This document shows, in pieces, positions 4,141-19,502 of a stretch of 23,945 nucleotides of DNA. Location of the stretch: IMG/VR virus record IMGVR_UViG_3300044647_002420, positions 1-23,945 of that record, one strand, 5' to 3'. The notes under the pieces are model-generated. The model had not been told where the DNA came from. It saw nothing but the letters and a program-made list of their open reading frames with translations, and did not search any database. This stretch comes from a virus. Made by a program: the position numbers and the translations under genes. The number at the start of each line of letters is the position of its first letter. Position 1 is the first letter of the stretch.

Positions 4141-5162
4141 TCAACTTCCCCCGTTCTATATAAAAGCGCCATATTGTTTTCCACTGTATTTATTTCGACC
4201 TCTTCTTCTGAGCAAATATCGGGTCTAAATGTTGTCATAGCTTTTTCAAAAAACTCTTGCGATAATGTTTTGTATTCTCTATTGCTTTTAGAAAAATTTG
4301 GAGCAGGAGTTTCATCCAGCTTACCAATAGTATAAACCAAATCTCCAAAAGATGTTGGCGTATAAAATGTTTTTGTTTTAAATCCTGCCGCTTGTATGGT
4401 ATGTGCAATGCACTTAAAACATTTGCTTTTTTTAACCAAAGACCCACTTTGGACAGCAATTCCTCCTCCATTGTTAAGGAGTGGTATTAAACTTAAATAA
4501 AACTCCAACGAATATAGTTTATTAAAAATAATATCGTCTGGATCTGGGAAATCGCATATTATCACATCGTACTTAGTTGTGTTACTTTTTGCAAACTCAA
4601 ATGCATCCTCGTTTAGAATAGTACACTTTGCCATAGAGTTCTCATTAATTTCAACCATTATGGGATCAGATAAAAATAAGTCAGTTATGTTCTTATCAAA
4701 GTCAACAAGTGTTACTTGCGCGTTTGGATTCTCTTTGAATATCTGCTTTGCTACGAGTCCATCTCCCCCTCCAAGAATTAAAAACTTGGTCGGCTTTTCT
4801 TTTAAGGAGCAAGTGATTGGACCTACCAGTGCTTCATGATATATCTCTTCACTATTTGTAGTAAACTGTATTTGATCGTTAATAATAAGCATGTAATTAT
4901 TTTTTTCATCTCTTAAAAGAGACAGTCGCTGCGGACCTACATCATTTGTGTAGACGACAATATTACCGGGGGTCGGAGATAATACGTTAGCTGCCTTTTG
5001 ACAAAAGAAAATTAAAGTTTCCATGTCACTAGCGGTTATTGAGGTTGCTAAAAAGTGCCCATGTAAATCACCAATGGTTAATTGATTATTGTGTACTTGA
5101 AATACTAGATCATTAACTGATGTTGTAAAAGATCTCTCAATTCTTGTTTTTTTACTAAACAT
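4137..5162 (-). CDS. speE: Spermidine-synthase-like polyamine aminopropyltransferase
   Basis: Known family enzymes move the aminopropyl group of decarboxylated S-adenosylmethionine to putrescine or a related amine. Visible in this 341-residue protein: an N-terminal beta domain (1-105); QFTTNSEEIYHEALV (98-112) with the YHE signature; LILGGGDG (128-135), the nucleotide-binding loop; VDFD (153-156), acidic ligand site; DAF (186-188); and CDFPDPDD (203-210) with the catalytic Asp. The 'PDP...KLYS.EFY' block and the C-terminal VEIN.VEN segment match the subfamily that in bacteria often carries an N-terminal membrane domain; that domain is absent here. The start at 5162 (TAATG overlap) is preferred over an ATG four codons upstream. 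Whether it makes spermidine, and whether decarboxylated SAM comes from host or phage, is unknown. Confidence 0.85.
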   Translation of the reverse strand: MFSKKTRIERSFTTSVNDLVFQVHNNQLTIGDLHGHFLATSITASDMETLIFFCQKAANVLSPTPGNIVVYTNDVGPQRLSLLRDEKNNYMLIINDQIQFTTNSEEIYHEALVGPITCSLKEKPTKFLILGGGDGLVAKQIFKENPNAQVTLVDFDKNITDLFLSDPIMVEINENSMAKCTILNEDAFEFAKSNTTKYDVIICDFPDPDDIIFNKLYSLEFYLSLIPLLNNGGGIAVQSGSLVKKSKCFKCIAHTIQAAGFKTKTFYTPTSFGDLVYTIGKLDETPAPNFSKSNREYKTLSQEFFEKAMTTFRPDICSEEEVEINTVENNMALLYRTGEVE

Positions 5163-5524
5163 TAATGTCTCCAAACTAAACTAAGCTTTTTATAGTAAGT
5201 TTGAGCAGTCGGATTTTTAATTTTCTTAGCTCCAGATGTTCCGAGATTATAACATAATACGTACCCATTTTTTATTTTATGAGAACATCTTGTTTTTAAT
5301 TTACGTAAAGTATCCATTGCTATAGCTGTATTTGTGTCCGGATTAAATATCCAAGTATTATTATGAAATTTGTATACTCTACGATTAAGTTGGAATAGTC
5401 CACCATCGTTAGTTCTAGACAATGCAGCCGGATTCATATTGCTCTCTAATCTAGCCATTTGAAATGACAAAGATGGTTCTATTCCGTTTATTGCTGAATA
5501 AAGAGTTATAAATAAGTTAATCAA
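5162..5524 (-). CDS. SLT-type lytic transglycosylase, probable endolysin
   Basis: Lytic transglycosylases cleave the glycan strands of peptidoglycan. This 120-residue protein has the family hallmarks: catalytic Glu27 in ARLESNMNPAALS, the GGLFQLN block (41-47), YNLG (92-95) and a late Tyr (YYKKL, 110-114). It is close to a minimal SLT domain. The N-terminus (MINLFITLYSAINGI) is hydrophobic and might act as a weak signal or arrest sequence. The start codon is TTG, supported by AAGGGG 6 nt upstream and by an 8-nt overlap with the preceding stop (TTGATTAA). It overlaps the next gene by TAATG. A virion-associated role instead of lysis is possible. Confidence 0.8.
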   Translation of the reverse strand: MINLFITLYSAINGIEPSLSFQMARLESNMNPAALSRTNDGGLFQLNRRVYKFHNNTWIFNPDTNTAIAMDTLRKLKTRCSHKIKNGYVLCYNLGTSGAKKIKNPTAQTYYKKLSLVWRH

Positions 5525-6137: not shown

Positions 6138-6166
6138 ATTATAACAAATGTACATAGAAGGAGCAA
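6138..6166 (-). promoter_or_regulatory. Probable sigma70-type promoter
   Basis: On the minus strand there is a perfect TATAAT (6143-6138) with an extended -10 TG one base upstream and a partial -35 TTGCTC at a 17-bp spacing. It points at the gene starting at 6120. It overlaps a phage-type promoter motif on the other strand. Confidence 0.5.
6141..6161 (+). promoter_or_regulatory. Recurring phage promoter motif, copy 1
   Basis: The sequence ATAACAAATGTACATAGAAG shares AACAAATGTACATAG (15 of 15 bases) with the minus-strand copy at 11061-11081 and the looser consensus with four late copies. It lies just ahead of the plus-strand zinc-ribbon gene, and its end merges into that gene's ribosome binding site. 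The layout resembles T7/SP6-type promoters, with a start at the purines after 'ATA'. Confidence 0.6.
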
Positions 6167-6168
6167 AT

Positions 6169-6360
6169 ATGATTTGCAAGATATGTAAAGAAGAAAAGCA
6201 GAAAGAGCCTATCGTTAGAGGAACTGTGACAAGGTTTGTTGATGAATCTGGTAAGCTATGGAATGGCAAGGTTTGCAGTTGTTGTTATCGAGAATATAAC
6301 CGCGAACGTATGCGCAATAAGCGTAAGCAATTAAAAGTTGGAAATCCAAGAAACGTGTAG
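6169..6360 (+). CDS. Small zinc-ribbon protein on the opposite strand
   Basis: A 63-residue protein, the only plus-strand gene among the left-hand genes. It has C3-x2-C6 and C36-x2-C39 (with an extra C38), then CYREYNRERMRNKRKQ, a basic helix. This zinc-ribbon plus 'REYNRER' pattern resembles the N-terminal part of phage recombination endonuclease VII/HNH-type nucleases, but the nuclease core is missing, so it may be a stand-alone DNA-binding piece or a remnant. The ATG at 6169 is chosen for its GAAGGAG 6 nt upstream; an ATG at 6148 lies inside the promoter motif. The 3' end overlaps a convergent gene by 30 nt. Confidence 0.75.
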   Translation: MICKICKEEKQKEPIVRGTVTRFVDESGKLWNGKVCSCCYREYNRERMRNKRKQLKVGNPRNV

Positions 6361-6588
6361 CCTGCATTCGTTTTCCAATGATTTGAATTCTAGTTGGTTA
6401 GCGTAGAATCCTTTCTTTTCTAGAGCGGGGATAATTCTTTTAGCAAGCTCTTTAGTTGCAAATACTTCAAATTCAAAAAAACCAAGTTCCGCATGTAGGT
6501 ATATAAGATGCTCAATGTCATATTTTGTAGTATATACACTTACTTCTGATCTTTTTGCTAACTTTACTGCTTGTTTTTTAGTAATCAT
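6331..6588 (-). CDS. Hypothetical protein, 85 residues
   Basis: It starts MITKKQAVKLAKRSEVSVYT and has a beta-alpha-beta pattern (HLIYLHAELGFFEFEVFATK, then a helix and more strands). No catalytic or binding motif is visible. AAGG lies about 8 nt before ATG. Its last 30 nt overlap the end of the convergent plus-strand gene. Confidence 0.7.
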   Translation of the reverse strand: MITKKQAVKLAKRSEVSVYTTKYDIEHLIYLHAELGFFEFEVFATKELAKRIIPALEKKGFYANQLEFKSLENECRLHVSWISNF

Positions 6589-6601
6589 TAAATAACCTTA
6601 G

Positions 6602-7099
6602 TTACCTTAATACATCTTTTTTCTTTCTAAAAAATTCAGTCATGCCGTACCATTCTTCATAAGAAAACTTATTACTTCTAGCAATGTTGCATCTGGTACA
6701 GCATACTACAACATTATCAAGACTATACCCTTTTAAATTATTTTTACGATCTAGATAATATGCTCTACTTAAATATTTACCGGAGACAACTGAATATTTT
6801 ACCCATGGTATTTTTGAATAACAATAATGACATTCTTGTATTTTAGTTAATTCCAAAAAATCTCCATATGTTATATCATTTTTTAATTTTCTATGGTCTT
6901 TTTTAAAACTATTATATATACTATAAAAAGGTGGTTTTGCATGACTGTGTATTTTACATTTTAAAGATGAATTTTTAAACTCTGACTTTCGTACTCTAAT
7001 TTCAGTAGTGCACATTTCCTCTGAGCACTTCAAAACTAAAATAATTCTAGGTCCGCCACTTTTTCTTGGCATTCTTTCTATTTTAATTAGATTATTCAT
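6602..7099 (-). CDS. HNH endonuclease with N-terminal zinc-finger-like region
   Basis: HNH enzymes nick or cut DNA; free-standing phage copies are often homing endonucleases. In this 165-residue protein, C90-x2-C93 and C134-x2-C137 form the zinc frame, between which lie LDRKNNLKGYSLDN (116-129) and VVCCTRCN (131-138), the HNH core with the conserved Asn. The position usually holding the first catalytic His reads as 'LDR', a common variant in phage members. Residues 25-53 hold an extra Cys/His cluster likely to bind zinc. The start at 7099 forms an ATGA overlap with the ribonucleotide reductase stop; an earlier ATG (7126) would lie inside that gene. Confidence 0.85.
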   Translation of the reverse strand: MNNLIKIERMPRKSGGPRIILVLKCSEEMCTTEIRVRKSEFKNSSLKCKIHSHAKPPFYSIYNSFKKDHRKLKNDITYGDFLELTKIQECHYCYSKIPWVKYSVVSGKYLSRAYYLDRKNNLKGYSLDNVVVCCTRCNIARSNKFSYEEWYGMTEFFRKKKDVLR

Positions 7100-8991
7100 T
7101 TTATTGGACAAACTCCCGTGGTGCATTCTGCTTCCATTTCAAAATCTCCAATAGCTTCAAGAGATTCAATCTTTTTAACTTTTGCAGAAAGTTCATCAAA
7201 TTGTTCTTTTGTAATTTCTTCTAAAGGAGCCTGATCAAATCCGTGTTCAGAATGTAAAAGAAAAGATACAGTTTTTAAACAAGTATTATAGTTTTTTGAA
7301 AGCCATTGTTTAATTTCAGCAAGTTCGTCTTTTTTGTAATAAATAGTTACAGAAACTGCATTGTCAGACCAATCAGTTTGCAGCCTTTTAATCACTTCAA
7401 GCTGATCAAGTGCCGTCATATCCTTGGCAAACTTGGTTCCTTCTGGAAATGAACTTGGGAAAGAAACGACAACTGTATTTTTATCCTCTGTTCCATCGAA
7501 ATTGCGCTGAAATTCAATTGGATAGCCATGACTGCGACAAACTTCCACAAGTGGATTGTTAGATGCAATACGAATACGTCGAATGTGGTATTGCGAATAA
7601 CCCGGATGTGCGCCCGGTGTAACGCCTCCTAGCAAACTCAAAGTACCGCTGGGCTTAACCGTTGTAAGCTTAATTGAAGTTGGAAATCCGTTTTTAGCAG
7701 AGTATTCAATATCAAAAGATCTTAACATTTCGTAAGCTTCCGGTAGCCAAGAACGTTGTTCTTCTGTTGCTTGGAGATAACCTGTAATTCCAATTCCCAT
7801 ACGCATATTTTTATGGACTACTGCTTCGGTTTCTGCATTATGGCAAGGTAGCGCCAGACTGTGTTTAGCAATTCGATATAGATTTTTAAGTACTTGGAAT
7901 AGCCGTTCTTTTGTTTTAATGTTTGGCAGAAAAGCTTCTGCTAGACAACAGGTTTCTTTATCCTCAAGAGATTGTTCTGCACAAGGATTAAAACCAATCA
8001 CATTAGGGTCTGGATATTGAGTTTGTCCAGTTCTTCCGATAGTTTGTGCCAGCTTTAGGTTAATCAATCCATAAGGCTCTCCATTACCATTATAGCCCTG
8101 CCAGAACTGTTCTGGAAGAAGGGAGAAGTCGTTGCAAACTACAGAATTATTTGACATTGCTCGCCAATTTGGAATATTTCCTAAGTCCCATCTTTTAGCA
8201 TTTAGAAACTGTAAGTCGTCCATATCTCCGATTGCAATTTCAGCGCTCCGCCGAACATTTCCAGCTACAACAATTGAGCCGATTATATTCATAATATCAA
8301 GACAATCGATTGGGCGAACTTTCTTGTTGGAACGAGAATTTAGTAACTTGTTAATCTCCGTAATACCCCAACAAAGATCTTCTGGACCAGAAGCTACTCC
8401 ACCAAAGCCTTTAATAAGAGATCCCTTTCCTCTAATGCAAATAGTCGAATAACTAAATCCTTTTCCGGTAATGAAATGAGCTTCTAATGTTTTTTGTAAA
8501 AGCTCTACCCATCCTTGTCGAGTATCTGGTACAATATAATCTGCGTCTTTTGTGTCTTGTCTAATAACTTTTACTTTTTTTGGTTTTGGAAGTTCATAAA
8601 CGTATTCTCTTTGAATATTAAACCCCACCCCACATCCTAGCATAAGCATATCCATCGTCCACGTAAAAGGACGAATAGGTTCATTTACTAGCGTGACAGC
8701 ACAGTTTTGTAAGCTCGGAAGCCCAAGTTTATCTACAGTCTTTGTACCAAGCTGCCAAAGAAAACGCCCAGCAACAATGCCTTCAAGATTAAGCATCATT
8801 TGTTTAACATCTTCACGTTCTTCTAGAGTAAATCCAACTTTTAATTGTTTGTCACAAGCATTTAAAACTCGTTCGATTGTCTGATTAAATTCTTCTGTTG
8901 GAGAACCATCTTCATCTCTGAGTTTTCTAGCATATGTTCTTTTATATGTTGCGTATCCAATTGGTCCCCATGGAATCGACACCTTGCTCAT
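7096..8991 (-). CDS. nrdJ: Adenosylcobalamin-dependent (class II, monomeric) ribonucleoside-triphosphate reductase
   Basis: The enzyme reduces ribonucleotides to deoxyribonucleotides using a B12-generated thiyl radical, supplying dNTPs for phage DNA. Key residues in this 631-residue protein: Cys97 (SLQNCAV) and Cys348 or 349 (CCLAEAF), the probable redox pair; Cys337 and Glu339 in NPCAEQ, radical and catalytic site; KPSGTLSLLGGVTPGAHPGY (446-465), phosphate site; and the C-terminal Cys623/Cys628 pair ending in GVCPIK, typical of the monomeric Lactobacillus-type enzyme. It is about 100 residues shorter than that enzyme. AAGGAGA lies 5 nt before ATG. No small subunit or activase is needed or seen. 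Its stop overlaps an HNH endonuclease gene. Confidence 0.95.
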   Translation of the reverse strand: MSKVSIPWGPIGYATYKRTYARKLRDEDGSPTEEFNQTIERVLNACDKQLKVGFTLEEREDVKQMMLNLEGIVAGRFLWQLGTKTVDKLGLPSLQNCAVTLVNEPIRPFTWTMDMLMLGCGVGFNIQREYVYELPKPKKVKVIRQDTKDADYIVPDTRQGWVELLQKTLEAHFITGKGFSYSTICIRGKGSLIKGFGGVASGPEDLCWGITEINKLLNSRSNKKVRPIDCLDIMNIIGSIVVAGNVRRSAEIAIGDMDDLQFLNAKRWDLGNIPNWRAMSNNSVVCNDFSLLPEQFWQGYNGNGEPYGLINLKLAQTIGRTGQTQYPDPNVIGFNPCAEQSLEDKETCCLAEAFLPNIKTKERLFQVLKNLYRIAKHSLALPCHNAETEAVVHKNMRMGIGITGYLQATEEQRSWLPEAYEMLRSFDIEYSAKNGFPTSIKLTTVKPSGTLSLLGGVTPGAHPGYSQYHIRRIRIASNNPLVEVCRSHGYPIEFQRNFDGTEDKNTVVVSFPSSFPEGTKFAKDMTALDQLEVIKRLQTDWSDNAVSVTIYYKKDELAEIKQWLSKNYNTCLKTVSFLLHSEHGFDQAPLEEITKEQFDELSAKVKKIESLEAIGDFEMEAECTTGVCPIK

Positions 8992-9003
8992 TTTTCTCCT
9001 TAA

Positions 9004-10035
9004 TTAAGTAAGTCTAATTTCTCTTGCTTTTCCAAAATGCTTTTTCAACATTTTGTTTTTCTCTTCGATTAGTTTAGCACACTCGGCGAAACTTTTTTCA
9101 GTTTTTTTATGAGTAAAGCACATTTCTCTGATGTCTACGATGGGCATGTTTTCTGTAAGTTTTAATTCAGTCTCAGATGGATCTCTTTTTAAATAAAGAT
9201 TCATTAGTTTTTTTCTTGCATCTACACTTGGATATTCTACGCGCACAAAAACATCAATACGTCCATTTCGTACCACGTTTTCTGGGATAGATTCGGGGTA
9301 GTTTGTAGATAGAAAATAGATAGCATTAGACACTGAAGTTGGACCATCTAAAAATTCAAGCATGTCTCGAATATCCTCTGAGTTTTCAAGCAATGACACA
9401 GCTTCTTCAAATACAAATATTTTAAGCGTATTTTTTGTAGATACTTCGATCTTTTCAAGGAACTTTCTAGACGGAACTCCGTCCATAAAGATAACGATTG
9501 CCTTTCTTTTACGGATGAACTCTCTAAGATATGAAGTCTTGCCAGTGCCCGGAGGACCAAATAGTAAAACCCCTAATTTGTAGGAAGCACAAGAATCATC
9601 ATATAGCTGTTTGTTATCTATAAAGTCATCCACTGTCCTATCTAAATCAATTAAGCTATCCATCAGTTCAATATACTTGTCTGCCCTAACTACAGTAGGA
9701 GTAAGTCTTTCTGGTGTTGCCGAAGAAGAATATTCGTGAAAATATATTCCCGGGGAGAGTTCAATAGGCGGTTCGTTTGGTGTAGTTTTTTCGTATATTT
9801 CCACTAAATTTTCTGTTTTAATATCGTAACTTTTATCAGTTCCCTTCAGGAACTTAGACATAGCCTCTGGAGATTCAAAGTATTTAAGCTCATGTTTGCT
9901 CCTTACAAAAGGACTAAAATAATCCCCACTTGGACCAGAGAACTTATACCAAATTTTACTATCAATAGAGCTTTGATCTGGTTGCTTATCCTCTTCTGCA
10001 TAGATAGAGGCGTTCATCTTATCTATAAAATTCAT
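9004..10035 (-). CDS. AAA+ ATPase
   Basis: A 343-residue protein. Residues 1-150 form an unassigned N-terminal domain. The ATPase core follows: Walker A GPPGTGKT (160-167), Walker B IFVFEE (206-211), sensor-1 LSTN (242-245) and RNGRID (256-261), with the arginine-finger position. The 'GRID.F..V..P' segment is typical of BCS1/proteasomal-type AAA proteins, which work as rings that remodel proteins. In phages such proteins serve replication, virion assembly or protein turnover; nothing here chooses among these. The start overlaps the upstream stop by ATGA, joining it to a coiled-coil protein that could be a partner. Confidence 0.85.
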   Translation of the reverse strand: MNFIDKMNASIYAEEDKQPDQSSIDSKIWYKFSGPSGDYFSPFVRSKHELKYFESPEAMSKFLKGTDKSYDIKTENLVEIYEKTTPNEPPIELSPGIYFHEYSSSATPERLTPTVVRADKYIELMDSLIDLDRTVDDFIDNKQLYDDSCASYKLGVLLFGPPGTGKTSYLREFIRKRKAIVIFMDGVPSRKFLEKIEVSTKNTLKIFVFEEAVSLLENSEDIRDMLEFLDGPTSVSNAIYFLSTNYPESIPENVVRNGRIDVFVRVEYPSVDARKKLMNLYLKRDPSETELKLTENMPIVDIREMCFTHKKTEKSFAECAKLIEEKNKMLKKHFGKAREIRLT

Positions 10036-10394
10036 ACTGGATTGCTCCGAATCTTTTCTTGAAGTTGATTTGTAATCTGTTCAATTTCATTTCGAGCGTC
10101 CAAAACTTCTTGTTTTAGTTCTTCTACCTCTTCGGCAGGGCGGTCTTTGTCGTTTTCAAGGAATGTCAGAGCCTTATCCAGAGAGTGTCTTACAATCTCA
10201 CAAAACTCTACAATAGTTTCTGCGTCTCCTCTTTTTAGCGCCACATAAGCAACATTTTCGGGTTTAATCTTTTCGTAAAGCTGATTAAACTCATTAGCAA
10301 GTTCTACATCTTTTCCATTTACGGCATTATTTTCAGAGGCTTTTAAAATTTCTAAAAGATAATTTCGTTGGCTATCATTCAAATACAATTTCAT
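10032..10394 (-). CDS. Coiled-coil protein of unknown function
   Basis: A 120-residue, highly acidic helical protein. Residues about 85-115 (EEVEELKQEVLDARNEIEQI and beyond) have heptad spacing and should form a coiled coil. GGGGA precedes the ATG. It overlaps the HU-like gene upstream by 20 nt and the AAA+ gene downstream by ATGA, so the three are coexpressed; an adaptor or regulator of the ATPase is a reasonable guess but not shown. Confidence 0.75.
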   Translation of the reverse strand: MKLYLNDSQRNYLLEILKASENNAVNGKDVELANEFNQLYEKIKPENVAYVALKRGDAETIVEFCEIVRHSLDKALTFLENDKDRPAEEVEELKQEVLDARNEIEQITNQLQEKIRSNPV

Positions 10395-10647
10395 CTGATC
10401 TTTCCCCTTTATCGTCGTTTAGTCTTTCAAAAACTTCATCGCTTAATCTAATTCTAATGGATAAACCAGAATCTGTGATCGATACATTGAATACTCCAAG
10501 TCCGTCCCAATACATTCGTTGGCTTTTTTTTAAGACCTCAACCAGCTCGTAGGCTGTTACTTTAAGTATAGCATCGACTTCTGTGTATTTCAAGTTTACA
10601 CGTTTTGCTACTTTTTTAGAAAGTCTATTCATTTTTGCTACGCGCAT
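10375..10647 (-). CDS. HU/IHF-like DNA-binding protein (tentative)
   Basis: A 90-residue protein. Residues 9-70 follow the HU/IHF plan: a helical N-terminus (LSKKVAKRVNLKYTEVDAIL), a second helix (AYELVEVLKKSQRMY), then the turn GLGVFNV leading into a strand. It lacks the full-length arms with a clear Pro tip, so DNA bending by intercalation is uncertain. It would act on phage DNA, for example in replication or packaging. The start ATG is one base after the upstream TAG. Confidence 0.6.
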   Translation of the reverse strand: MRVAKMNRLSKKVAKRVNLKYTEVDAILKVTAYELVEVLKKSQRMYWDGLGVFNVSITDSGLSIRIRLSDEVFERLNDDKGERSDEIVFE

Positions 10648-10648
10648 A

Positions 10649-11050
10649 CTAGTATATCCACAATCTCTTACCTGTCTTCTTTGGCTCTCTTACGTCAACA
10701 TGTACAAATTTTTTATTTCTACCATCGCCAATATTATCAAATACATTATAACATATTTCGTATACATCGTCCAATTCGTCTAGTGTCATAAGTACTGGAG
10801 CAATATCAGCAGCTAATCCTGACATATGAGCACTTCCAATCTTCCCTCCAACAGCAGCATTGTGTTCCGGACAACGGTAGCCAGAGTTTACTTTAAGAGC
10901 CTTGCCGTAGGTATCTCGTACCTGTTGCAATTTGTCGATGAGTTTTTGGTCAATAAATTGATCCGTACACTTCGAACAAGGGCATTGAAACTCTGACGAA
11001 TTAAAATTCTTACTAAGCTGCTTGTTTTCGCCTTTCTTAAATGGTATCAT
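10649..11050 (-). CDS. Peptidase M15A family, probable zinc D,D- or L,D-peptidase (lysis or wall processing)
   Basis: M15 peptidases cut the peptide crosslinks of peptidoglycan. This 133-residue protein contains SGYRCPEHNAAVGG (56-69), SAHMSGLAADI (73-83) and VHVDVR (116-121); His75, Asp82 and His117 are the expected zinc ligands. The N-terminus carries FQCPCSKC, a Cys cluster often seen in phage members. There is no signal peptide, so access to the wall would need a holin. A clear ribosome binding site (GGGGAGA) precedes the ATG and is part of a recurring promoter motif (11061-11081). It is the first gene of the left-hand block. Confidence 0.9.
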   Translation of the reverse strand: MIPFKKGENKQLSKNFNSSEFQCPCSKCTDQFIDQKLIDKLQQVRDTYGKALKVNSGYRCPEHNAAVGGKIGSAHMSGLAADIAPVLMTLDELDDVYEICYNVFDNIGDGRNKKFVHVDVREPKKTGKRLWIY

Positions 11051-11060
11051 AAAAAAATCT

Positions 11061-11081
11061 CCCCTATGTACATTTGTTTAA
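11061..11081 (-). promoter_or_regulatory. Recurring phage promoter motif, copy 2
   Basis: On the minus strand it reads TTAAACAAATGTACATAGGG. It shares AACAAATGTACATAG with the copy at 6141-6161 and faces the first left-hand gene (10649-11050). The GGGGAGA at its end doubles as that gene's ribosome binding site. 'CATAGGGGAGA' looks much like the start region of T7-type promoters. Confidence 0.65.
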
Positions 11082-11215
11082 GTAACACATAAATTATGCT
11101 ATGCGTCACTTATAATTTTAACTATTTAGTATATAAATATCTGGAAAGGAGTATAAATCTAGAGTATACTATTATACGTATGGTATACGATGGAGTGATA
11201 CAATCCTAACCGTTT

Positions 11216-11240
11216 CGCAGCTCGCTTTAGGCTCGCTGCG
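11216..11240. repeat. GC-rich inverted repeat with internal direct repeat
   Basis: CGCAGC and GCTGCG form 6-bp arms around 13 nt; within it, GCTCGCT is directly repeated 11 bp apart (11220-11226 and 11231-11237). It is a GC-rich island in an AT-rich region. It could be a protein-binding site; no T-run follows, so a terminator is unlikely. Confidence 0.45.
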
Positions 11241-11265
11241 TAAATTGCGTGTACTATATAGTAAT

Positions 11266-11295
11266 ATTATACACACGTTTCCTAAAATCAACCAA
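11266..11295 (-). promoter_or_regulatory. Possible sigma70-type promoter
   Basis: The minus strand has a perfect TATAAT (11271-11266) with a weak -35, TTGGTT, 18 bp upstream. It points toward the left-hand block. In such AT-rich DNA a TATAAT alone is weak evidence. It is offered as a candidate for early host-polymerase transcription. Confidence 0.3.
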
Positions 11296-11315
11296 ATTAT
11301 TTTTTACGTACATAA

Positions 11316-11334
11316 ATAACAAATATAACTGAGA
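11316..11334 (+). promoter_or_regulatory. Recurring phage promoter motif, copy 3 (start of late genes)
   Basis: The sequence ATAACAAATATAACTGAGA shares AAATAACAAATATA with the copy at 19483. It is the last such element before the late block and lies 85 bp before the first late gene (11419). Confidence 0.65.
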
Positions 11335-11418
11335 TGATGTAAGTTCGACTACCCCTAGTGGGGATACAAATTACACAAGCGATTAACACAGATTCTCACT
11401 TTTAACATAGGTAATAAA

Positions 11419-11706
11419 ATGCGAAATTATGATTTAATGCTCATATTAGTAAGTCTTTTTGTCGTTAGAATTATAGCGTTTTCGGCTAGTTATGCTGACG
11501 CTATCTGTTTACTATCTTTAGTAGCGTATAAGTTTGGTAAAGATTTTCTAGTACTAAAACGTATATCCTCTGATTTTGAAAGTAAACTTCAATCTCAAGA
11601 AAAGGAAACTAACGCAAAGCTTAACTTGTTAGCAGAAGAGATCGTAAAAGTAAGAAACTCATCTGAAGGCTTAAAGGCTGCTATTAACTTAACAGCTAAG
11701 AGGTAA
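11419..11706 (+). CDS. Membrane-anchored coiled-coil protein
   Basis: A 95-residue protein. Residues 5-38 are hydrophobic (LMLILVSLFVVRIIAFSASY and on to LLSLVAYKF), likely two short spans or one long hairpin; residues 45-90 are a polar helix with coiled-coil character. AGG lies about 8 nt before ATG. It is the first gene of the late block, two bases before the probable TerS. It might anchor a packaging or lysis factor at the membrane, or be a holin-like protein, but no family is recognised. Confidence 0.7.
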   Translation: MRNYDLMLILVSLFVVRIIAFSASYADAICLLSLVAYKFGKDFLVLKRISSDFESKLQSQEKETNAKLNLLAEEIVKVRNSSEGLKAAINLTAKR

Positions 11707-11707
11707 T

Positions 11708-12124
11708 ATGAAATTTCTGTCTGCTGATGATGTTAGGGATATCCTAAGCCAAAATGAAGAACTTAAGAAGTATGGCGAAAAGCTTACTCAAACAAATATT
11801 AAACTTCAAGAAGAACTAAATCAAGCAAAAGACAAGTTGCGTCATCTTGAAGAACTAACAAAGATTAATAGTAGTCCTTTGGCTATTGGCTCAAACGAAG
11901 AAGATGTTTGTCGAATTGAAATTGGTAGATATTATAATCTAGTAAAGACAAGACCCCTTGAGTTTAATGAAGTTAAGTCTTTTGAAATATACGTTAAATC
12001 TCTTATGCTCATCCGAGGTAAGACCGCAGTTGAAGACAAGAAATCTAAAAAGACACAATCTTTGAATGAAGATCAACTGCTACAACTAGCGTTGCAGGTT
12101 GTAGATGAATCAAACGAACAATAG
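11708..12124 (+). CDS. Probable terminase small subunit
   Basis: TerS recognises phage DNA and delivers it to TerL. The call rests on position (overlapping the start of TerL by 20 nt), size (138 residues) and composition: an N-terminal coiled coil (16-50), then a helical core (EEDVCRIEIGRYYNLVKTRP and EVKSFEIYVKSLMLIRG, about 64-103) resembling the 'EEVKxxEIYxKxL' segment I know from podovirus small subunits. No clear helix-turn-helix is visible. It could instead be another packaging accessory. Confidence 0.5.
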   Translation: MKFLSADDVRDILSQNEELKKYGEKLTQTNIKLQEELNQAKDKLRHLEELTKINSSPLAIGSNEEDVCRIEIGRYYNLVKTRPLEFNEVKSFEIYVKSLMLIRGKTAVEDKKSKKTQSLNEDQLLQLALQVVDESNEQ

Positions 12125-13538
12125 CCCATTACAGATAAGTCCACAACAAGCAAGAGAAATCCTTTGGAATAAAGGAAAGATCACTGATTTCCTATTAGAC
12201 TCAAATCAAAGAGTCTTAAGAGATCAGATACGAAGTGTCAAAAGAAAAACCCACGTTGCAGTATTTTCTCGACAAAGTGGTAAATCTTATGGTGCTCTGG
12301 GTATTGCGGTCGAAGAACTTTTATCACGTAAAAACATTACAATTTGCTACGTCGCGCCAAGACTTAAGCAGGGTAAGAAAATTGTTAAGGCTACGTTTGA
12401 TGAAATTTTTAAATCGTGTCCACAAGAACTTAAACCTAAGTTTGACAGAGACTCTTCTTCCTATGTATTCCCCTCTACAAAGAGCAAGCTTGAGCTATAT
12501 GGCTTTAATGCTGAAGAGATAGAATCTGCCCGAGGTCCAAAAGCACACATGATAATCGTCGATGAGTGCGGGTTTATGACCGATCTTAAGTATGGTCTTA
12601 GATCAGTGCTATATCCTAAGCTAAATACAACACGCGGTCCAATAATCCTTATTTCTACATTACCAAAATCGCAAGGTCATGAATTCTGGTATCTTGTTAA
12701 GAAAGCCGAGTTTGATGAAGTACTGATTAAGCGTAATATTTGGGACTGTCCGCGTTATACAAAAGAAGATATTGATGGGTTTGCCGAAGAAGTTGGCGGT
12801 TATGATTCTGTAGACTTTAAAAGAGAGTACCTTAACATAATGATCACGGACGAAGATCATGCCGTTATACCGGAAGCCAATGATGAAACCCTAGACCGAA
12901 TTGTAAAGCTTTATCAGCGCCCAGCCTATTTTGATCCTTACGTCTCCATGGATATTGGCGTAAAAGACTTGACAGGAGTATTATACGCGTACTATGATTT
13001 CCTTACAGGTAAGATCGTAATTGAGAATGAAGCAACTTTTAAAGGAAAATTGTTTACAACAGCAAATTTGGCAGCTTCAATCAAAAAAACAGAAGAGGAG
13101 TTATGGGGATTAAAGAAACCATTTCTTCGTGTTTCAGATAATAACAACTTGATTTTATTGAACGACTTAAACATTGATTATAACATCTCCTTCATTCCTA
13201 CAGCAAAAGACAATAAACACGCATGGATAAACCAAATACGTATTCTTATTGCCGAAGAACGCATTGTCATCAACCCTAAATGTAAGCAGTTGATTTTTCA
13301 TTTAAAAAACGCTACGTGGAATAAAAATAAAACCGAATATGATAGATCTCTCGACGGAGGTCACTATGACCTTATTGACTCACTCGCTTATCTTATTCGT
13401 AATATAGCGTACTCTCGTAACCCATATCCAAAAGGTTATGGCATGACTTATGGAGACGGAGCATTCCGTATTGGAAATGAAAATAGAAGTAATTTCGAGA
13501 GTCACATAGTTAACATGTTCTCAATAAAAAAGAATTAA
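12105..13538 (+). CDS. terL: Terminase large subunit (ATPase and nuclease)
   Basis: TerL is the motor that pumps DNA into the prohead and cuts it. In this 477-residue protein the ATPase half has the Walker A variant SRQSGKS (55-61), Walker B IIVDE (150-154) and the coupling motif STLP (184-187). The nuclease half has the RNase H-type acids Asp283 (SMDIGVKD), Asp345 (RVSD) and the C-terminal cluster GGHYDLIDSLAYL (418-430) with Asp422 and Asp425. Both halves are intact. The start overlaps the upstream gene by 20 nt, with AGG 7 nt before ATG. The stop codon lies inside a promoter motif. Confidence 0.95.
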   Translation: MNQTNNSPLQISPQQAREILWNKGKITDFLLDSNQRVLRDQIRSVKRKTHVAVFSRQSGKSYGALGIAVEELLSRKNITICYVAPRLKQGKKIVKATFDEIFKSCPQELKPKFDRDSSSYVFPSTKSKLELYGFNAEEIESARGPKAHMIIVDECGFMTDLKYGLRSVLYPKLNTTRGPIILISTLPKSQGHEFWYLVKKAEFDEVLIKRNIWDCPRYTKEDIDGFAEEVGGYDSVDFKREYLNIMITDEDHAVIPEANDETLDRIVKLYQRPAYFDPYVSMDIGVKDLTGVLYAYYDFLTGKIVIENEATFKGKLFTTANLAASIKKTEEELWGLKKPFLRVSDNNNLILLNDLNIDYNISFIPTAKDNKHAWINQIRILIAEERIVINPKCKQLIFHLKNATWNKNKTEYDRSLDGGHYDLIDSLAYLIRNIAYSRNPYPKGYGMTYGDGAFRIGNENRSNFESHIVNMFSIKKN

Positions 13539-13555
13539 ACAAATACTATTAGAGG
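13535..13555 (+). promoter_or_regulatory. Recurring phage promoter motif, copy 4 (portal)
   Basis: TTAAACAAATACTATTAGAG overlaps the terminase stop codon and ends 6 nt before the portal ATG. The terminal AGAGG may also serve as ribosome binding site. It diverges from the other late copies at two positions just after AACAAAT. Confidence 0.5.
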
Positions 13556-13561
13556 TTTAGA

Positions 13562-15583
13562 ATGGCTAAAGCTACATATTTTGCAGCAAGAGATGGTAAA
13601 GAAACAGCATCTGTTTTGCTTGAAAAGGCAACAGACTGGAGTAATACTCTTACCACTAACGGATATTTAGAAAAGTTGAAGACCTGCTGGGCAGCGTATC
13701 ATGGTGCGTATTTTACGGACACAGCTTCTGGTCATACAATTACGTTTGCTGGCGAGCAAGGAGAGCTTGCTCAGCTCCCGGTAAATCATATTCGTAACCT
13801 TGCTCAGCATATGTACGTTATGACAACTTCTAGCCGTCCGTCAATGGAAGCTCGTGCCGCAAATACGGATTATAAGTCTAGCGCACAAGTTACATTAGCT
13901 AATGGTTTGTTAGATTACTACATGCGTGAAAAGCGTCTTGAGCGTTATATTAATCGTGCCGTAGAATTCAGTATTGTAATTGGTGCTGGTTATGTTAAGG
14001 TTGAATGGGATGCTACTACTGGTAAGGTTGTAGAGGAAGACGAAGAAAGTGGAGAGAAGGTTTACGAAGGGGACATTAAGTTCACTAACTTATCTCCTTT
14101 TGATGTAGTTTTTGATGTAAACAAAGAAGACAACCAACATGATTGGATATTAGTTCGCACATATAAAAATAAATTCGATTTAGCTGCTAAGTACCAAGAA
14201 CTTGAAGATAAGATATTAGCTCTTGACACAAAATCAGTCAAGGACCGATATTCCTTACAAGTATTCAGAAAGAGTGAATCTGATGAAGTAGAAGTCTGGA
14301 CAATGTACCATAAAAAAAGCGATGCTATGCCAGAAGGAAGAGAGCTAGTATTTCTTTCAAATGATATTATTCTTCACGATCAAGTATTACCATATAGAAG
14401 AATTCCTATTTTCAGGATGAGTCCAAACGTAATTCTTGGAACAGACTTTGGTTATTCTAATCTCTTCGACCTTCTCCCATTACAGGAAGGTATTAACCAT
14501 TTGTACTCGTCTATCATGTCAAACAATATCGCTTTCGCTACACAAAACTTATTTGTTCGTTCTGGTGCCAATATTGATATTACAAATCTTGGTGGAGGAC
14601 TTAATATTATTCAAGGATCTGAAAAGCCAGAACCATTGAATCTTCTTGGCACATCTCAAGAAACATTTAGTTTCCTAAGTATTCTAGAAGGTAAGATGGA
14701 GCAGCTTTCCGGAGTGAACTCTGTAACCAGAGGTACACCCGATCCAGCACAAAATTTACGTTCAGGAAATTCCTTAGCCCTTGTTCAATCAATGGCGATC
14801 CAATTCCAGTCCGGACTTCAAAATCAATACGTGCAGCTTGTAGAAGATTTAGGGGTAGCTATTCTTGAAATATTACAAGATTATGCAATGGCTCCCAGAG
14901 TTGCATCTATTGTCGGAATAAATAATAAACAATACTTAGTTTCCTTTAAAGGTAGCGATATTGCTGATGTTAACCGAGTAATTGTGGACGTAGCAAATCC
15001 TCTATCAAGAACCACTGCTGGACGAGTTCAGATGGCAGAACAGCTAATGCAAATGAAGCCTGATGAGTTTTCTATTCAACAATACGCTCAAGTTATTAAT
15101 ACTGGTCGTATTGATGGAATGATGGAGAGTCCTGTAGATCAATCTAACCTTATTCAACAAGAGAACGAAAGACTTATTCAAGGAATTGCAGTACCGGCTC
15201 TTGTTATTGATGACCATAAAGAACACATTCTTCGTCATAGAACCGTTCTAAATGATATTGACATTCGTATGGATGACGAGAGGGCTTCTGTAATTTTTGC
15301 TCACATTCAAGAACATATTAACTTTGCAAGAAGCACTGATCCTGCAGTACTTACTATGACAAATCAACAGCAACTTCCTCCAGCAGCACCTCAAGCTCAA
15401 CCGGGACAAGACCTAGCGAATAATCCTGAACAAAATGTAGAAGGACAATCCTCAATTGGTCAAGTAATGGAAGGTTCAGAACAAACTCAAGGTCAAATGA
15501 TGCCGGGAACTCCAGCACCAGCTACTCCTCCTGCTCCATTTGAAAACTTACCAACATCAACAGTACCAACTCCTAACCAATAA
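13562..15583 (+). CDS. Portal protein (P22-type)
   Basis: The portal is the dodecameric ring at one head vertex through which DNA enters and leaves. This 673-residue protein shows the segments I associate with P22-like portals: GAGYVKVEWD, LSPFDVVFDV, LPYRRIPIFRM, then LQEGINHLYSSIMSNN, SGVNSVTRGTPDPAQNLRSG and the following helical NSLALVQ block. The last about 70 residues are Pro/Gln-rich and disordered. Its place after TerL and before the scaffold fits. The start has AGAGG 6 nt upstream. Confidence 0.9.
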   Translation: MAKATYFAARDGKETASVLLEKATDWSNTLTTNGYLEKLKTCWAAYHGAYFTDTASGHTITFAGEQGELAQLPVNHIRNLAQHMYVMTTSSRPSMEARAANTDYKSSAQVTLANGLLDYYMREKRLERYINRAVEFSIVIGAGYVKVEWDATTGKVVEEDEESGEKVYEGDIKFTNLSPFDVVFDVNKEDNQHDWILVRTYKNKFDLAAKYQELEDKILALDTKSVKDRYSLQVFRKSESDEVEVWTMYHKKSDAMPEGRELVFLSNDIILHDQVLPYRRIPIFRMSPNVILGTDFGYSNLFDLLPLQEGINHLYSSIMSNNIAFATQNLFVRSGANIDITNLGGGLNIIQGSEKPEPLNLLGTSQETFSFLSILEGKMEQLSGVNSVTRGTPDPAQNLRSGNSLALVQSMAIQFQSGLQNQYVQLVEDLGVAILEILQDYAMAPRVASIVGINNKQYLVSFKGSDIADVNRVIVDVANPLSRTTAGRVQMAEQLMQMKPDEFSIQQYAQVINTGRIDGMMESPVDQSNLIQQENERLIQGIAVPALVIDDHKEHILRHRTVLNDIDIRMDDERASVIFAHIQEHINFARSTDPAVLTMTNQQQLPPAAPQAQPGQDLANNPEQNVEGQSSIGQVMEGSEQTQGQMMPGTPAPATPPAPFENLPTSTVPTPNQ

Positions 15584-16434
15584 TGAAAACAAAACGCTTT
15601 TCTCCTATTACACCAAGAGCAGTCGAACAGTTTAGTTCTTTTATTGCAAATACTCCACTAGTTCAATACGATGATTTAGTTAACAAAGCGTTAGAGATGG
15701 GGTATGATCCAAATGAACTTATAGATGCATCTCTTGGTAGCGTAAAATATGAGAAATCAAGCGCAAGTTTAAAAAATCCGTTAGAGGATATTCTTAATGC
15801 TATTTATGAAAAAGACCCTACTCCGGGTAAGAGATATGTTATCGATCCTTCTGAAGCAGTTTCAGAAAGAGCAAAAGAAGTAGCAAGAAATCTGGAAGGT
15901 AGCGTTGGGTTTGCTTCTGCAGTTCCTTCAAAAAGAAGGGCACTAGCCGACTACGCTGCAGTAACTCCTCGTAAAACAGATTTAGATAAATTAAAAGCAA
16001 TAGCAGATGCGGGTCACGAATTAGAACATTTAAAAGATTTTGTAACTAGACCTGACTTTAGACCTAAAACAGAAAAGTCATTTAAACCGGGGCATCATTT
16101 TAAAGATATATACGAGCCGAGAGAACTTATTCGTGAAGTAAAAGGTTTACCCGAAGATGTCAAGTTAACAAAAGAAATCGTAAAACAAAGCAAGAAATCA
16201 GGACTGAGAACTTCTCCATTTACAAAACTAAGATCTCTAGTAGGTTTATTGCCCGGATTAGCTGCTGCAGGAATAGCAGCGTATGCTCCAGAATCTAAGG
16301 CAGCGCAAGTTCCCGCAAAAGTAATTGAAGAAGGCGATCCAACTTCTATACTGTTTCCCCCAGAAGCAGGCGCAGGAGAGGAAGAAGAAATAAAAAAGAT
16401 GTACGAAGAAGCAAAGAATAAAAGGAAAAAATAG
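15583..16434 (+). CDS. Head-region protein with HExxH motif and membrane-like segment
   Basis: Not a family I can name. The 283-residue protein holds HELEH (145-149) in 'ADAGHELEHLKDF', the HExxH pattern of zinc metallopeptidases, with possible third ligands His171, His172 or Glu178 downstream (GHHFKDIYEPREL). Residues about 216-235 (RSLVGLLPGLAAAGIAAYAP) are hydrophobic and Ala/Gly-rich, like membrane-active segments of ejected virion proteins. The C-terminus is acidic then basic. It lies between portal and scaffold genes (TAATG overlap), where prohead proteases or internal proteins are often encoded. Protease activity is inference. Confidence 0.65.
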   Translation: MKTKRFSPITPRAVEQFSSFIANTPLVQYDDLVNKALEMGYDPNELIDASLGSVKYEKSSASLKNPLEDILNAIYEKDPTPGKRYVIDPSEAVSERAKEVARNLEGSVGFASAVPSKRRALADYAAVTPRKTDLDKLKAIADAGHELEHLKDFVTRPDFRPKTEKSFKPGHHFKDIYEPRELIREVKGLPEDVKLTKEIVKQSKKSGLRTSPFTKLRSLVGLLPGLAAAGIAAYAPESKAAQVPAKVIEEGDPTSILFPPEAGAGEEEEIKKMYEEAKNKRKK

Positions 16435-16435
16435 T

Positions 16436-16708
16436 ATGATGGATAAATTGCAAGAAATTCTTAGAAAACTTCAAAATGGAGAGGAGCTTACAGAAGAAGA
16501 AGCTCTTGTTCTTAAAACTGAAACACAAGATACACAAGAAGCTGCCGAACCTATGATCAAAGCTGTAGGCGGTGAGCCAGATATGAAGCCCGAAAAGGCA
16601 TTAAAGTTATCTGGTGAAGTATCTAGTCCAGACATTGAAGAAATGGATAAAGTTGTAAACTACGAGGACTATCTTAAAAAGAAAAAAAGACAATTTGGCT
16701 ACGAATAA
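16436..16708 (+). CDS. Small acidic protein, possibly head-assembly accessory
   Basis: A 90-residue helical, highly charged protein, MMDKLQEILRKLQNGEELTE at the start, with a Lys-rich end (YLKKKKRQFGYE). A second ATG immediately follows the first and could be the real start. AGGA lies about 10 nt upstream. It starts one base after the upstream stop. No family recognised; the charge pattern is similar to accessory proteins of scaffolds. Confidence 0.7.
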   Translation: MMDKLQEILRKLQNGEELTEEEALVLKTETQDTQEAAEPMIKAVGGEPDMKPEKALKLSGEVSSPDIEEMDKVVNYEDYLKKKKRQFGYE

Positions 16709-16795
16709 AATTCAAAATCAATACTAGAAGCTATCACAATAACGTGACGCTTCACTTTAATCACTACCCTATATGGGCGTAACAAAGGAAAATGT

Positions 16796-17716
16796 ATGTC
16801 AGAAGTATCAAACGACGCACCAGTATCAGATGCTCCAGAAGTGGACGCAGCGGAACTAGAAGCAGAGCAAGCTTCTCCAGAAAGCCAAGAACTCAAAGAA
16901 GAACTCGAAGAGTTTGTTCTTAAAGTTAATGGTAAAGAAGTACGAGAAAAAATTAATCTCCGAGACAAAGAGCGTATTACTAAGGCTCTGCAAATGGAAA
17001 GAGTCGCAACTCAAGCATTCCAAGAGCGAGCAATTACAGCAAAACAACTACAAGAAGTACAGGCTGACGTACAGGAATTTCTGCAACAATTTACAGAAAA
17101 TCCAATGTCAATTGTAATGAACCCAGAATTTAATCTCTCCAAAGAACAAAAGCGTCAACTTGCCGAAGCTATTCTTCGTGAGGATTTAGAAGAGAGCCAA
17201 AAGACTCCAGAGCAACTTGAATACGAAGCTACCAAACGTAAATACGAAGAACTCCTTGCAGAAAAAGAAGCACTCGAAGAACAACGCAGATCTGATGAAC
17301 AAGCTCGTCTTGAACAAGAAGCAGCGATTGAGCTAGAAAATGAAATCGTTCAGGCTATTGAAATTGGATCACTTCCAAGATCTCAGTATATTTCAAAGAA
17401 GCTTGCCGATCTTGCATATATCGCATACTCTAACGGAATTGACCTAACTATTCAAGATCTCATACCATTCGTTAAGCAACAGTATAAGCGTGATATTGCT
17501 GAAATGATGGGGGTATTGGATGATGATGAAGTAGAAATGCTAGTGTCTAAAGAGCGTATTAGAGCTATTAGAAACAAGCAAATTCAATCAGTTAAGCCTA
17601 AAGACGGTGTTCCTAAAGCTCCACTTAAGACACAGGATACGGGCACCTCTAATAAAAAACAAGAAGAACCACAAAAGATTAAAGCAAAAGATTTCTTTAA
17701 GAATTTAGGTGGTTAA
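16796..17716 (+). CDS. Probable scaffolding protein
   Basis: Scaffolding proteins shape the prohead and leave before or during packaging. This 306-residue protein is acidic at the N-terminus, has a long coiled coil (about 140-195, rich in Glu, Lys, Arg, Gln) and a basic C-terminal region ending in a short Lys/Phe-rich helix (KIKAKDFFKNLGG) that would contact the capsid. Its position just before the capsid genes fits. AAAGGA lies 7 nt before ATG. The stop codon is part of a promoter motif. Confidence 0.75.
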   Translation: MSEVSNDAPVSDAPEVDAAELEAEQASPESQELKEELEEFVLKVNGKEVREKINLRDKERITKALQMERVATQAFQERAITAKQLQEVQADVQEFLQQFTENPMSIVMNPEFNLSKEQKRQLAEAILREDLEESQKTPEQLEYEATKRKYEELLAEKEALEEQRRSDEQARLEQEAAIELENEIVQAIEIGSLPRSQYISKKLADLAYIAYSNGIDLTIQDLIPFVKQQYKRDIAEMMGVLDDDEVEMLVSKERIRAIRNKQIQSVKPKDGVPKAPLKTQDTGTSNKKQEEPQKIKAKDFFKNLGG

Positions 17717-17730
17717 CAAATATAGTTGAG
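17713..17730 (+). promoter_or_regulatory. Recurring phage promoter motif, copy 5 (capsid genes)
   Basis: TTAACAAATATAGTTGAG overlaps the scaffold stop codon and precedes the capsid genes by about 110 nt. The predicted first transcribed purines lie at the start of the hairpin at 17726-17744, so the message would begin with a structured 5' end. Confidence 0.6.
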
Positions 17731-17775
17731 TAATCAGGACTCAATAGACTTTTAAGCAAGCACTTGCCCTTAAAA
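17726..17775 (+). other. Two stem-loops in the capsid-gene leader
   Basis: First stem: TTGAGT (17726-17731) with ACTCAA (17739-17744), loop 7 nt. Second stem: TTTTAAG (17750-17756) with CTTAAAA (17769-17775), extended by CAA/TTG with a 2-nt bulge around a 4-nt loop. No T-run follows, so these are not terminators. An A-rich single-stranded stretch (17799-17820) and AAGGA follow before the next ATG. Such leaders often stabilise highly expressed phage messages. Confidence 0.55.
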
Positions 17776-17839
17776 CATCGAATGACGCAATGTATCTCAA
17801 AAAAATAAAATAAAAAAAAGTTAATAAAAGGAAAACAAA

Positions 17840-18166
17840 ATGGCTACCTCACTCTTGTCAAAAGACCCAAAAATTCAAGATCTTCAGCTTGAACAGAGAG
17901 ATCTGCTTCTCGTTGCAAATCTAGTTACTCCATCAGCAGAAGATGCTGGTATCGTATCAATTACTGGACTAATTGCTGCTCGCGTAATTGCTATCGACGT
18001 AAAAGATACCGTAAAATCTGTTCAGAAAGTTCGCGTTATCAATCGCGCAACAGGTGCTTCTATTGCTCTTGCAGCATTACCTTCCGTTTCCGGTAGCGTA
18101 ATTTCTGTAACTGTTGATGGAACTGGCGCATCTAGCGTTTGCATTGAAGCGTCTTACAAAGCTTAA
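17840..18166 (+). CDS. Small head protein, possibly decoration/stabilisation
   Basis: A 108-residue beta-rich protein with an N-terminal helix and then Ala/Val/Ser-rich strands (GLIAARVIAIDVKDTVKSVQ; GSVISVTVDGTGASSVCIEA). Its place between scaffold and major capsid genes and its probable high expression (structured leader, AAGGA, A-rich upstream) suggest a capsid decoration protein. No family is recognised, so this is inference. Confidence 0.6.
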   Translation: MATSLLSKDPKIQDLQLEQRDLLLVANLVTPSAEDAGIVSITGLIAARVIAIDVKDTVKSVQKVRVINRATGASIALAALPSVSGSVISVTVDGTGASSVCIEASYKA

Positions 18167-18194
18167 TTTTAATTAAAAAAAAGGAAACTAAATT

Positions 18195-19412
18195 ATGAGT
18201 TCTACAGCTAACACACTTGACAACCTAAATGGTTTGTACAAAAAAGTTTACGATGGTAAACTTGAAAACTTGATCCCAGATGGAGTTAAGCTTCTTAACG
18301 CTATCAAATTCGTTCGCAAAGAAAAGCGTCCGGGTGCTGATTATAACCAATCAGTAATTCTTGGTATGGAGCATGGCGTTAGCTTTGCTGAACCAGATGA
18401 AGGCGCATTTGCTCTTAATCCACCTATCTCTGGTGTAATTAAGCAAGCTTCAATCAAAGGCTACCAAATGGTGCTTCGTTCTGCTATGGCGTTCGACACT
18501 ATGTTTGCCGCTGATTCTGCTGGCGAAAGAGCTTTTGAAGAAGCTACTAAGTACATTTTCCAAGCTATGATGGACTCTATGTCTAAGAAGCTTGAAATCC
18601 GTCTTTTCTACGGTCAGTCTGGTCTTGCTTCTATTGGAGCACCGTCTGGTAACGTTCTTCCTATCACTGCTGGTGAATGGGCACCGGGTATCTGGGGCGG
18701 AGCTGAAAATATGCGCCTTGAGATTTACAGTGCTGCTGGAGTTCTTCGTGGTGACTGTAAAGTAACAACTGTTGATTTTGACAATAAAACTGTCACAGTA
18801 GATGCTCTTCCTGCTGCAGTTGTTTCTACAGACGTTATTTTTGAGTATGGTTCATACGGCAAGGAAATGGCTGGTCTTCACAAGATCATCACTAACACGG
18901 GTTCACTTTTCGGAATTTCTGCTTCTCAGTATTCTCTCTGGAAAGGTAACTCTCACGCTGTTGGTGGAGCAATGTCGTTCAACAAGCTCGCTAAAGGTCT
19001 TGCTAAGCCGGTTGCTAAAGGTCTTCAGTCTGACGTAACTGTTTACGTTAACCCTGCTTCATGGGCTGATCTCATGACTGAGCAAGCTGGTTCTAGACGT
19101 TTCGACGTTTCGTACAAGTCTGCTACAGCTCAGAACGGTTCTGAAGCTCTTGAGTTTTTCTCTCAGAATGGTAAAATGACTATCGTAGCTTCTATCTTCG
19201 TGAAAGAAGGCTTCGCTTACGCTATTAACCATGACCAATTCCTACGTGTTGGTTCAACTGACCTTACTTTCAAAAATCCTCTTAGCAATGAAGACTTCTT
19301 CCACTTGCTTGAGAATAATGCTGGTGTTGGTATTCGTTGTTATACTAACCAAGCTTTGTTCTGTACAAAGATCGGTCATCAGCTACTATTCACAGGCATC
19401 ACAATTTCTTAA
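18195..19412 (+). CDS. Major capsid protein
   Basis: A 405-residue protein that I assign as major capsid protein from its position after the scaffold, its size, its probable high expression and its composition (long beta-rich body with EAL/GSLF-type helical turns, N-terminal helical arm). Segments such as LENLIPDGVKLLNAIKF, PADADYNQ-like 'RPGADYNQSVILGMEH', then YGSYGKEMAGLHKIITNTGS and LTFKNPLSNEDFFHLLEN resemble capsid proteins of podovirus genomes. AAGGA lies about 11 nt before ATG. It is the last gene before the strong terminator. Confidence 0.8.
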   Translation: MSSTANTLDNLNGLYKKVYDGKLENLIPDGVKLLNAIKFVRKEKRPGADYNQSVILGMEHGVSFAEPDEGAFALNPPISGVIKQASIKGYQMVLRSAMAFDTMFAADSAGERAFEEATKYIFQAMMDSMSKKLEIRLFYGQSGLASIGAPSGNVLPITAGEWAPGIWGGAENMRLEIYSAAGVLRGDCKVTTVDFDNKTVTVDALPAAVVSTDVIFEYGSYGKEMAGLHKIITNTGSLFGISASQYSLWKGNSHAVGGAMSFNKLAKGLAKPVAKGLQSDVTVYVNPASWADLMTEQAGSRRFDVSYKSATAQNGSEALEFFSQNGKMTIVASIFVKEGFAYAINHDQFLRVGSTDLTFKNPLSNEDFFHLLENNAGVGIRCYTNQALFCTKIGHQLLFTGITIS

Positions 19413-19443
19413 TTTCAACCACTTGTGCAATGCAAGAACGATG

Positions 19444-19472
19444 GGGGAAGCTTCGGCTTCCCCTTTTGTTTT
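19444..19472 (+). terminator. Strong intrinsic terminator after the capsid gene
   Basis: GGGGAAGC pairs perfectly with GCTTCCCC around a TTCG tetraloop, followed by TTTTGTTTT. An 8-bp GC-rich stem with UUCG loop and U-run is a textbook rho-independent terminator. It separates the capsid genes from the fibre genes, which have their own motif copy 11 nt downstream. Confidence 0.95.
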
Positions 19473-19482
19473 ATGTAGTTAA

Positions 19483-19502
19483 ATAACAAATATATCTAGA
19501 GG
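19483..19502 (+). promoter_or_regulatory. Recurring phage promoter motif, copy 6 (fibre genes)
   Basis: ATAACAAATATATCTAGAGG shares AAATAACAAATATA with the copy at 11316. It comes directly after the terminator and before a GTG-started gene, so transcription would be re-started here. The end AGAGG also serves as ribosome binding site. Confidence 0.65.

Follow-up and report, generated by a model that had tools for sequence, protein, structure and literature searches.

A predicted clade-specific late promoter with attached structured leader RNAs in uncultured freshwater phages of about 80 kb

The late promoters of phage T4 have a single box of 8 bp, placed about one helical turn upstream of the start, with AT-rich DNA below it and no -35 element, and their variants include A at position -13 (PMC2988020). 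Phage phiEco32 likewise has promoters with a single box, tAATGTAtA, from which transcription starts 6 to 8 bp downstream and which is read by the sigma factor gp36 (PMC8948821). In AR9, the late promoters read AACA-6N-T-A/G and have been attributed to the phage's own non-virion multisubunit polymerase (PMC5312081).

The element described here was found in a window of 23,945 nucleotides from an environmental virus record (IMG/VR IMGVR_UViG_3300044647_002420), which is the whole stretch of DNA analysed. It resembles the T4 late promoters (gp55/gp33/gp45) in having a single AT-rich box at the -10 position, relative to the predicted start, in the AT-rich stretch below the box, in the lack of a -35 element and in its association with late virion genes; the A form of the box is identical to the T4 box at six of eight positions (TATAAATA in T4, AACAAATA or the same with a final G here). 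It differs from them at the other two box positions, the gp55 families phrog_234 and phrog_12791 gave no match at E 10, and the DNA polymerase of these phages belongs to family A. With phiEco32 (Kuravirus, 77.6 kb) the phages share a similar genome size, virion genes on the plus strand and a functional block on the minus strand, and the element shares with its middle and late promoters the single box with a start, predicted in our case, 6 to 8 bp downstream; however, the box sequence differs and no homologue of gp36 was found (phrog_1740, no match at E 10). Since the defining factor of each system was sought and not found, the motif is not assignable to the T4 or the phiEco32 type. The AACA tetranucleotide and the T-A/G start recall AR9, whereas the spacing is 8 here and 6 in AR9 and, unlike in AR9 and phiKZ, no phage multisubunit polymerase was found. 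The likeness to T7 and SP6 lies in a strand-aware promoter repeated along the genome; here, in contrast, no polymerase gene was found, the predicted start is A or G and the layout is that of a -10-like box.

Motif copies in the window

The original prediction had reported six strand-aware copies of AACAAAT, and all six are present where, and on the strands on which, it had placed them, the heptamer beginning at 6143, 11318, 13538, 17715 and 19485 on the plus strand and at 11078 on the minus strand. The copies, with their scores in the weight matrix described below, and a hairpin next to one of them are as follows.

6143 to 6157, plus strand: motif copy AACAAATGTACATAG, 22.7 bits, predicted +1 at about 6156, 5' of a lone plus-strand gene for a small Cys-rich (CxxC) protein
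11064 to 11078, minus strand: motif copy AACAAATGTACATAG, 20.2 bits, predicted +1 at about 11065, 5' of the M15 peptidase gene
11318 to 11332, plus strand: motif copy AACAAATATAACTGA, 19.2 bits, predicted +1 at 11331, terminase operon
13538 to 13552, plus strand: motif copy AACAAATACTATTAG, 19.9 bits, predicted +1 at about 13551, portal gene
17715 to 17729, plus strand: motif copy AACAAATATAGTTGA, 17.7 bits, predicted +1 at 17728, decoration/major capsid operon
19443 to 19464, plus strand: intrinsic-terminator-like hairpin after the major capsid gene, immediately 5' of the next copy
19485 to 19499, plus strand: motif copy AACAAATATATCTAG, 23.7 bits, predicted +1 at about 19498, gene at 19509 and the tail genes that follow

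The motif in the window reads AACAAAT-R-T-A-N-N-T-R, with one of the six copies deviating in the middle, and the T claimed as sixth base after the box is found in every copy. A matrix scan confirmed that each copy lies upstream of a gene on that gene's strand; the distance of at most about 110 nt that had been part of the same claim does not hold for the copy at 17715, which is 125 nt from its gene. The copy at 13538 lies 24 nt upstream of the portal ATG, the CxxC gene after the copy at 6143 probably starts in reality at the ATG at 6169, and the M15 peptidase (endolysin-like) gene opens the minus-strand block. Exclusively at the locus of the M15 peptidase, the motif is preceded at a distance of about 31 nt by a TGACGCA-like box (window about 11100-11109, minus strand); most relatives have kept it there, and it possibly represents the -35 element of a tandem host-type promoter.

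Taken alone, the heptamer shows no enrichment in the window (10 exact matches, 9.1 expected), and four of its exact matches are intragenic (8798, minus; 11791, plus; 14551, minus; 23261, minus), where two inexact ones had been noted originally. The other six are in non-coding DNA, which makes up 7.7% of the window (binomial p of about 3e-5). Because the heptamer by itself is at chance level, the signal consists of the extended motif together with its position. We used a cross-validated weight matrix of 23 columns, in which every genome in turn was scored with a matrix built from the others; the one for the window was trained only on ten related IMG/VR phages, with the window excluded. Exactly six matches in the window exceeded 12 bits (17.7 to 23.7 bits), all of them 5' of same-strand genes, the next best score being 9.8; dinucleotide shuffles of the window gave a mean of 0.5 matches above this threshold and a maximum of 3.

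Distribution in the phage clade

A scan with the large terminase returned, among the matches listed, 20 related viral contigs that are 73 to 90% identical in that protein. Ten related contigs were read whole, making eleven records with the window, and the search over relatives that had been suggested at the outset bore out the motif, as the element is found again at homologous loci. When one mismatch is allowed, the pattern AACAAATRTANNTRG occurs in all 11 records, window included, and is nearly absent from them when read backwards. With the cross-validated matrix, each relative has 4 to 11 upstream sites, and each of the other records gave 5 to 16 matrix matches versus 0.1 to 3.3 in shuffles.

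Two of the relatives, G006 and G002, close on themselves (an exact 126-bp head-tail overlap in G006, 269 bp at 98% in G002), form circles of about 82 and 79 kb with largely collinear gene order, and are probably complete genomes. In these two circles, none of the 20 copies scoring above 15 bits is located in a replication block; copies precede the genes for terminase, portal, scaffold, decoration protein plus major capsid protein, tail, M15 peptidase and one small CxxC protein of the same kind as in the window, hence mainly late (virion, packaging, lysis) genes, and each genome also has one copy inside a tail gene. Among 2.9 million viral contigs, the 16-mer TAACAAATGTACATAG lies 5' of genes only in this clade, and its other matches resemble coding matches. 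Among the papers searched, we found none naming AACAAAT as a phage late promoter. A search with the portal protein found no relatives in cellular genomes that would point to a host, and the motif is absent from the Silvanigrella phage CP017838, a distant structural relative (portal 29%, terminase 26%).

Several other features of these genomes deserve mention. A second recurrent 8-mer, GTGCATAG, occurs in the window at 1013-1006 and 714-707 (both minus strand) and in several copies per relative, often just 5' of or at start codons in a variable, non-late block. The ribonucleotide reductase encoded at window 7096-8991 (minus strand) shares only 27% identity with the reductase that G006 has at this locus, to which most other relatives are 83 to 91% identical, and it has apparently been swapped for a different reductase at this one locus. 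The window also carries a phage gene with a spermidine/spermine synthase domain (4137-5174, minus strand; PF01564, E 5.5e-26), and in the corresponding region G006 has a ClpX-like gene. A conserved 81-aa protein (L030:9296-9541, minus strand; G006 49296-49541) resembles the PhaR-type PHB_acc_N DNA-binding domain, which was detected in the protein set at E 1.7e-13 and assigned to this protein by eye; it may be a phage regulator. A ClpP-like protein of G006 (L029:13306-14055, minus strand), with an apparent signal peptide, is encoded next to an apparently secreted metalloprotease-like protein, both features being judged by eye. The family A DNA polymerase (L024:1496-3793, plus strand) has 44% full-length identity with that of the Flavobacterium phages immuto, by far the closest among the phage matches listed.

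Anatomy of the element and its structured leaders

An alignment of 87 upstream sites, seeded with the heptamer AACAAAT, has as conserved columns the heptamer, R, T, A, two free bases, T and a purine-rich run. Since the heptamer was the seed, its seven bases are conserved by construction, which is not so for the later columns. The -35 region shows no conservation among the 87 sites. Most genes carry Shine-Dalgarno sequences, and the purine run is partly the Shine-Dalgarno sequence of genes that start 23 to 30 nt downstream; sites with long leaders, in which there is no such overlap, agree on AACAAAT-A-T-A-N-N-T followed by G or A. In 53 of 82 sites, a T-purine step, with T at -1 and a purine at +1, falls at the same fixed distance, and if this purine is taken as +1 the box spans -13 to -6. 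With starts inferred in this manner from the motif, the predicted +1 column is 60% A and 23% G over all sites, and the 32 long-leader sites have 19 G, 8 A and 5 T.

Following the motif, the terminase, scaffold and decoration loci have a leader of 70 to 130 nt that is conserved across the relatives. In the window these leaders are the following.

11331 to 11418, plus strand: leader of the terminase operon, a structured RNA whose 5' stem starts at the predicted +1
16725 to 16795, plus strand: leader of the scaffold-like gene, a structured RNA (95.6% paired, 4 pairs changed on both sides)
17728 to 17839, plus strand: leader of the decoration/major capsid operon, a conserved stretch with a covarying hairpin (97.5% paired, 5 pairs changed on both sides)

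The terminase leader has 14 pairs, with 98.7% of cells paired and 5 pairs changed on both sides, versus 28 to 60% paired in slid controls, and its first stem begins at the predicted +1 or at the base after it. An RNA pattern of this leader, from which the box was left out, found 13 stretches among viral contigs, mostly in records already known, and every stretch read with enough upstream sequence has AACAAAT at the same place. The pattern of the decoration leader recovers related contigs with the motif at the same place, one coding chance match excepted. Upstream of the scaffold gene the relatives carry a further motif site; the window has kept the leader and lost a recognisable box. None of the three leader places in the window has a match in Rfam. 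Two of the three leaders share a CUACC-hairpin-like element.

Because the covarying leaders begin at or near the predicted +1 at the terminase and decoration loci, they lend independent support to a transcription start there. They suggest that some late mRNAs of the clade start in folded leader RNAs without an Rfam match, possibly serving translational control or as a protein-binding site. The short-leader sites, which lie 23 to 30 nt from the start codon and adjoin the Shine-Dalgarno sequence, would also suit a motif that is no promoter and works at the RNA level, as a signal for translation or processing. We consider this very improbable, since the motif at the terminase, scaffold and decoration genes lies about 80 to 130 nt upstream with the structured leader in between, one copy directly follows the terminator-like hairpin, and the leader stems start after the box and not within it. 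The original description of the copies as phage-specific promoters is supported by the cross-validated enrichment, the conservation at homologous loci, the location before mainly late genes and the leaders at or near +1, and we infer that the motif is a clade-specific late promoter with attached structured leaders.

Polymerase, specificity factor and proposed mechanism

The same description had assigned the promoters to a single-subunit RNA polymerase of the T7/SP6 type and suggested looking for its gene. Such a phage-encoded enzyme would fit a strand-aware motif of about 18 bp that ends in T-A-G/purine and is spread along the late genes, yet no T7-like gene is found in the two circular relatives: the family PF00940 has no match there even at E 10, in a search that detected the T7 positive control at E 1e-109, and tblastn with the T7 RNA polymerase gave chance matches only. 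None of the large proteins examined in the circular genomes resembles an RNA polymerase; they resemble tail/virion proteins, a family A DNA polymerase, a primase-helicase, RIIA or ribonucleotide reductase. T7-type polymerases are moreover expected to have a near-invariant G at +1. Without a detectable T7-type polymerase, and with A or G as predicted +1, the single-subunit interpretation fails; it is very probably wrong, and we give it hardly any credence. Only marginally better is the prospect of a strongly diverged phage polymerase (N4-like, crAss-like or jumbo-phage-like) missed by the profiles used. The AACA and T-R start of the AR9 late promoters speak for such an enzyme (PMC5312081), whereas the spacing here is AACA-8N-T-R, a profile search found no beta or beta' domains in the two circular genomes, with cellular controls positive in 14 of 14 genomes, and the large proteins have the other resemblances listed above; we regard it as highly unlikely.

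The absence of a recognisable phage RNA polymerase makes it most likely that the box is read by the host polymerase together with a phage factor. Searches for this factor gave no match to Sigma70_r2, and no sliding clamp was noticed on inspection of the proteins of the two circular genomes. Two conserved proteins encoded beside the late block of G006 (31826-32410 and 32364-32711, both minus strand) are candidates only: their AlphaFold models have a mean pLDDT of 56 and 71, respectively, Foldseek found no significant fold for the second, and neither has a sequence relative in the PDB. That no phage sigma factor was found, and that the layout is that of the -10 element of a multisubunit polymerase, would also be expected if a host alternative sigma factor, or the primary sigma factor with a phage activator bound elsewhere, read the box without any new phage protein for -10 recognition. 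This we hold to be unlikely, though to be taken seriously: TAACAAATGTACATAG is found 5' of genes only in this clade, and a replication block without the motif is in line with timing controlled by a phage product. A reading in terms of Bacteroidota promoters, whose -7 element is TAnnTTTG, was also considered, as the reverse complement of the box contains this sequence; it was rejected because such promoters would read away from all genes, and most genes have Shine-Dalgarno sequences.

Our current working hypothesis, which we favour with moderate confidence, is that the motif is the late promoter of an uncultured clade of freshwater phages of about 80 kb and is used by the host core polymerase with a phage-encoded factor. 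The promoter would lack a -35 element and comprise a single -10-type box (AACAAATR, about -13 to -6), AT-rich DNA after it and a start at T(-1)R(+1). Genes for early functions and replication would probably be left to the host polymerase and its primary sigma factor; the head of the early block has sigma-70-like matches, including TTGACA-17-GACAAT with an extended -10, in a number only moderately above expectation (8 versus 4.5 in shuffles). Late in infection, the host core polymerase carrying the phage-encoded specificity factor would open the box and transcribe the virion, packaging and lysis genes, some of the transcripts bearing folded 5' leaders that begin at +1. It counts against this hypothesis that no sigma family is detectable, that no sliding clamp was noticed and that the scaffold leader of the window is kept without a recognisable box. 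A narrower version, which we put forward tentatively, is that this clade-specific single-box promoter depends on a factor that is no polymerase and belongs to none of the known sigma families, and that its late mRNAs carry folded leaders of a new kind.

Together, our results map the predicted promoters, predict start sites and describe folded leaders for phages met here only in environmental sequence, and the two circular genomes narrow the candidates for the factor to a few dozen small conserved proteins. If the hypothesis is true, a new sigma-like factor would lengthen the short list of ways in which phages redirect the host polymerase.
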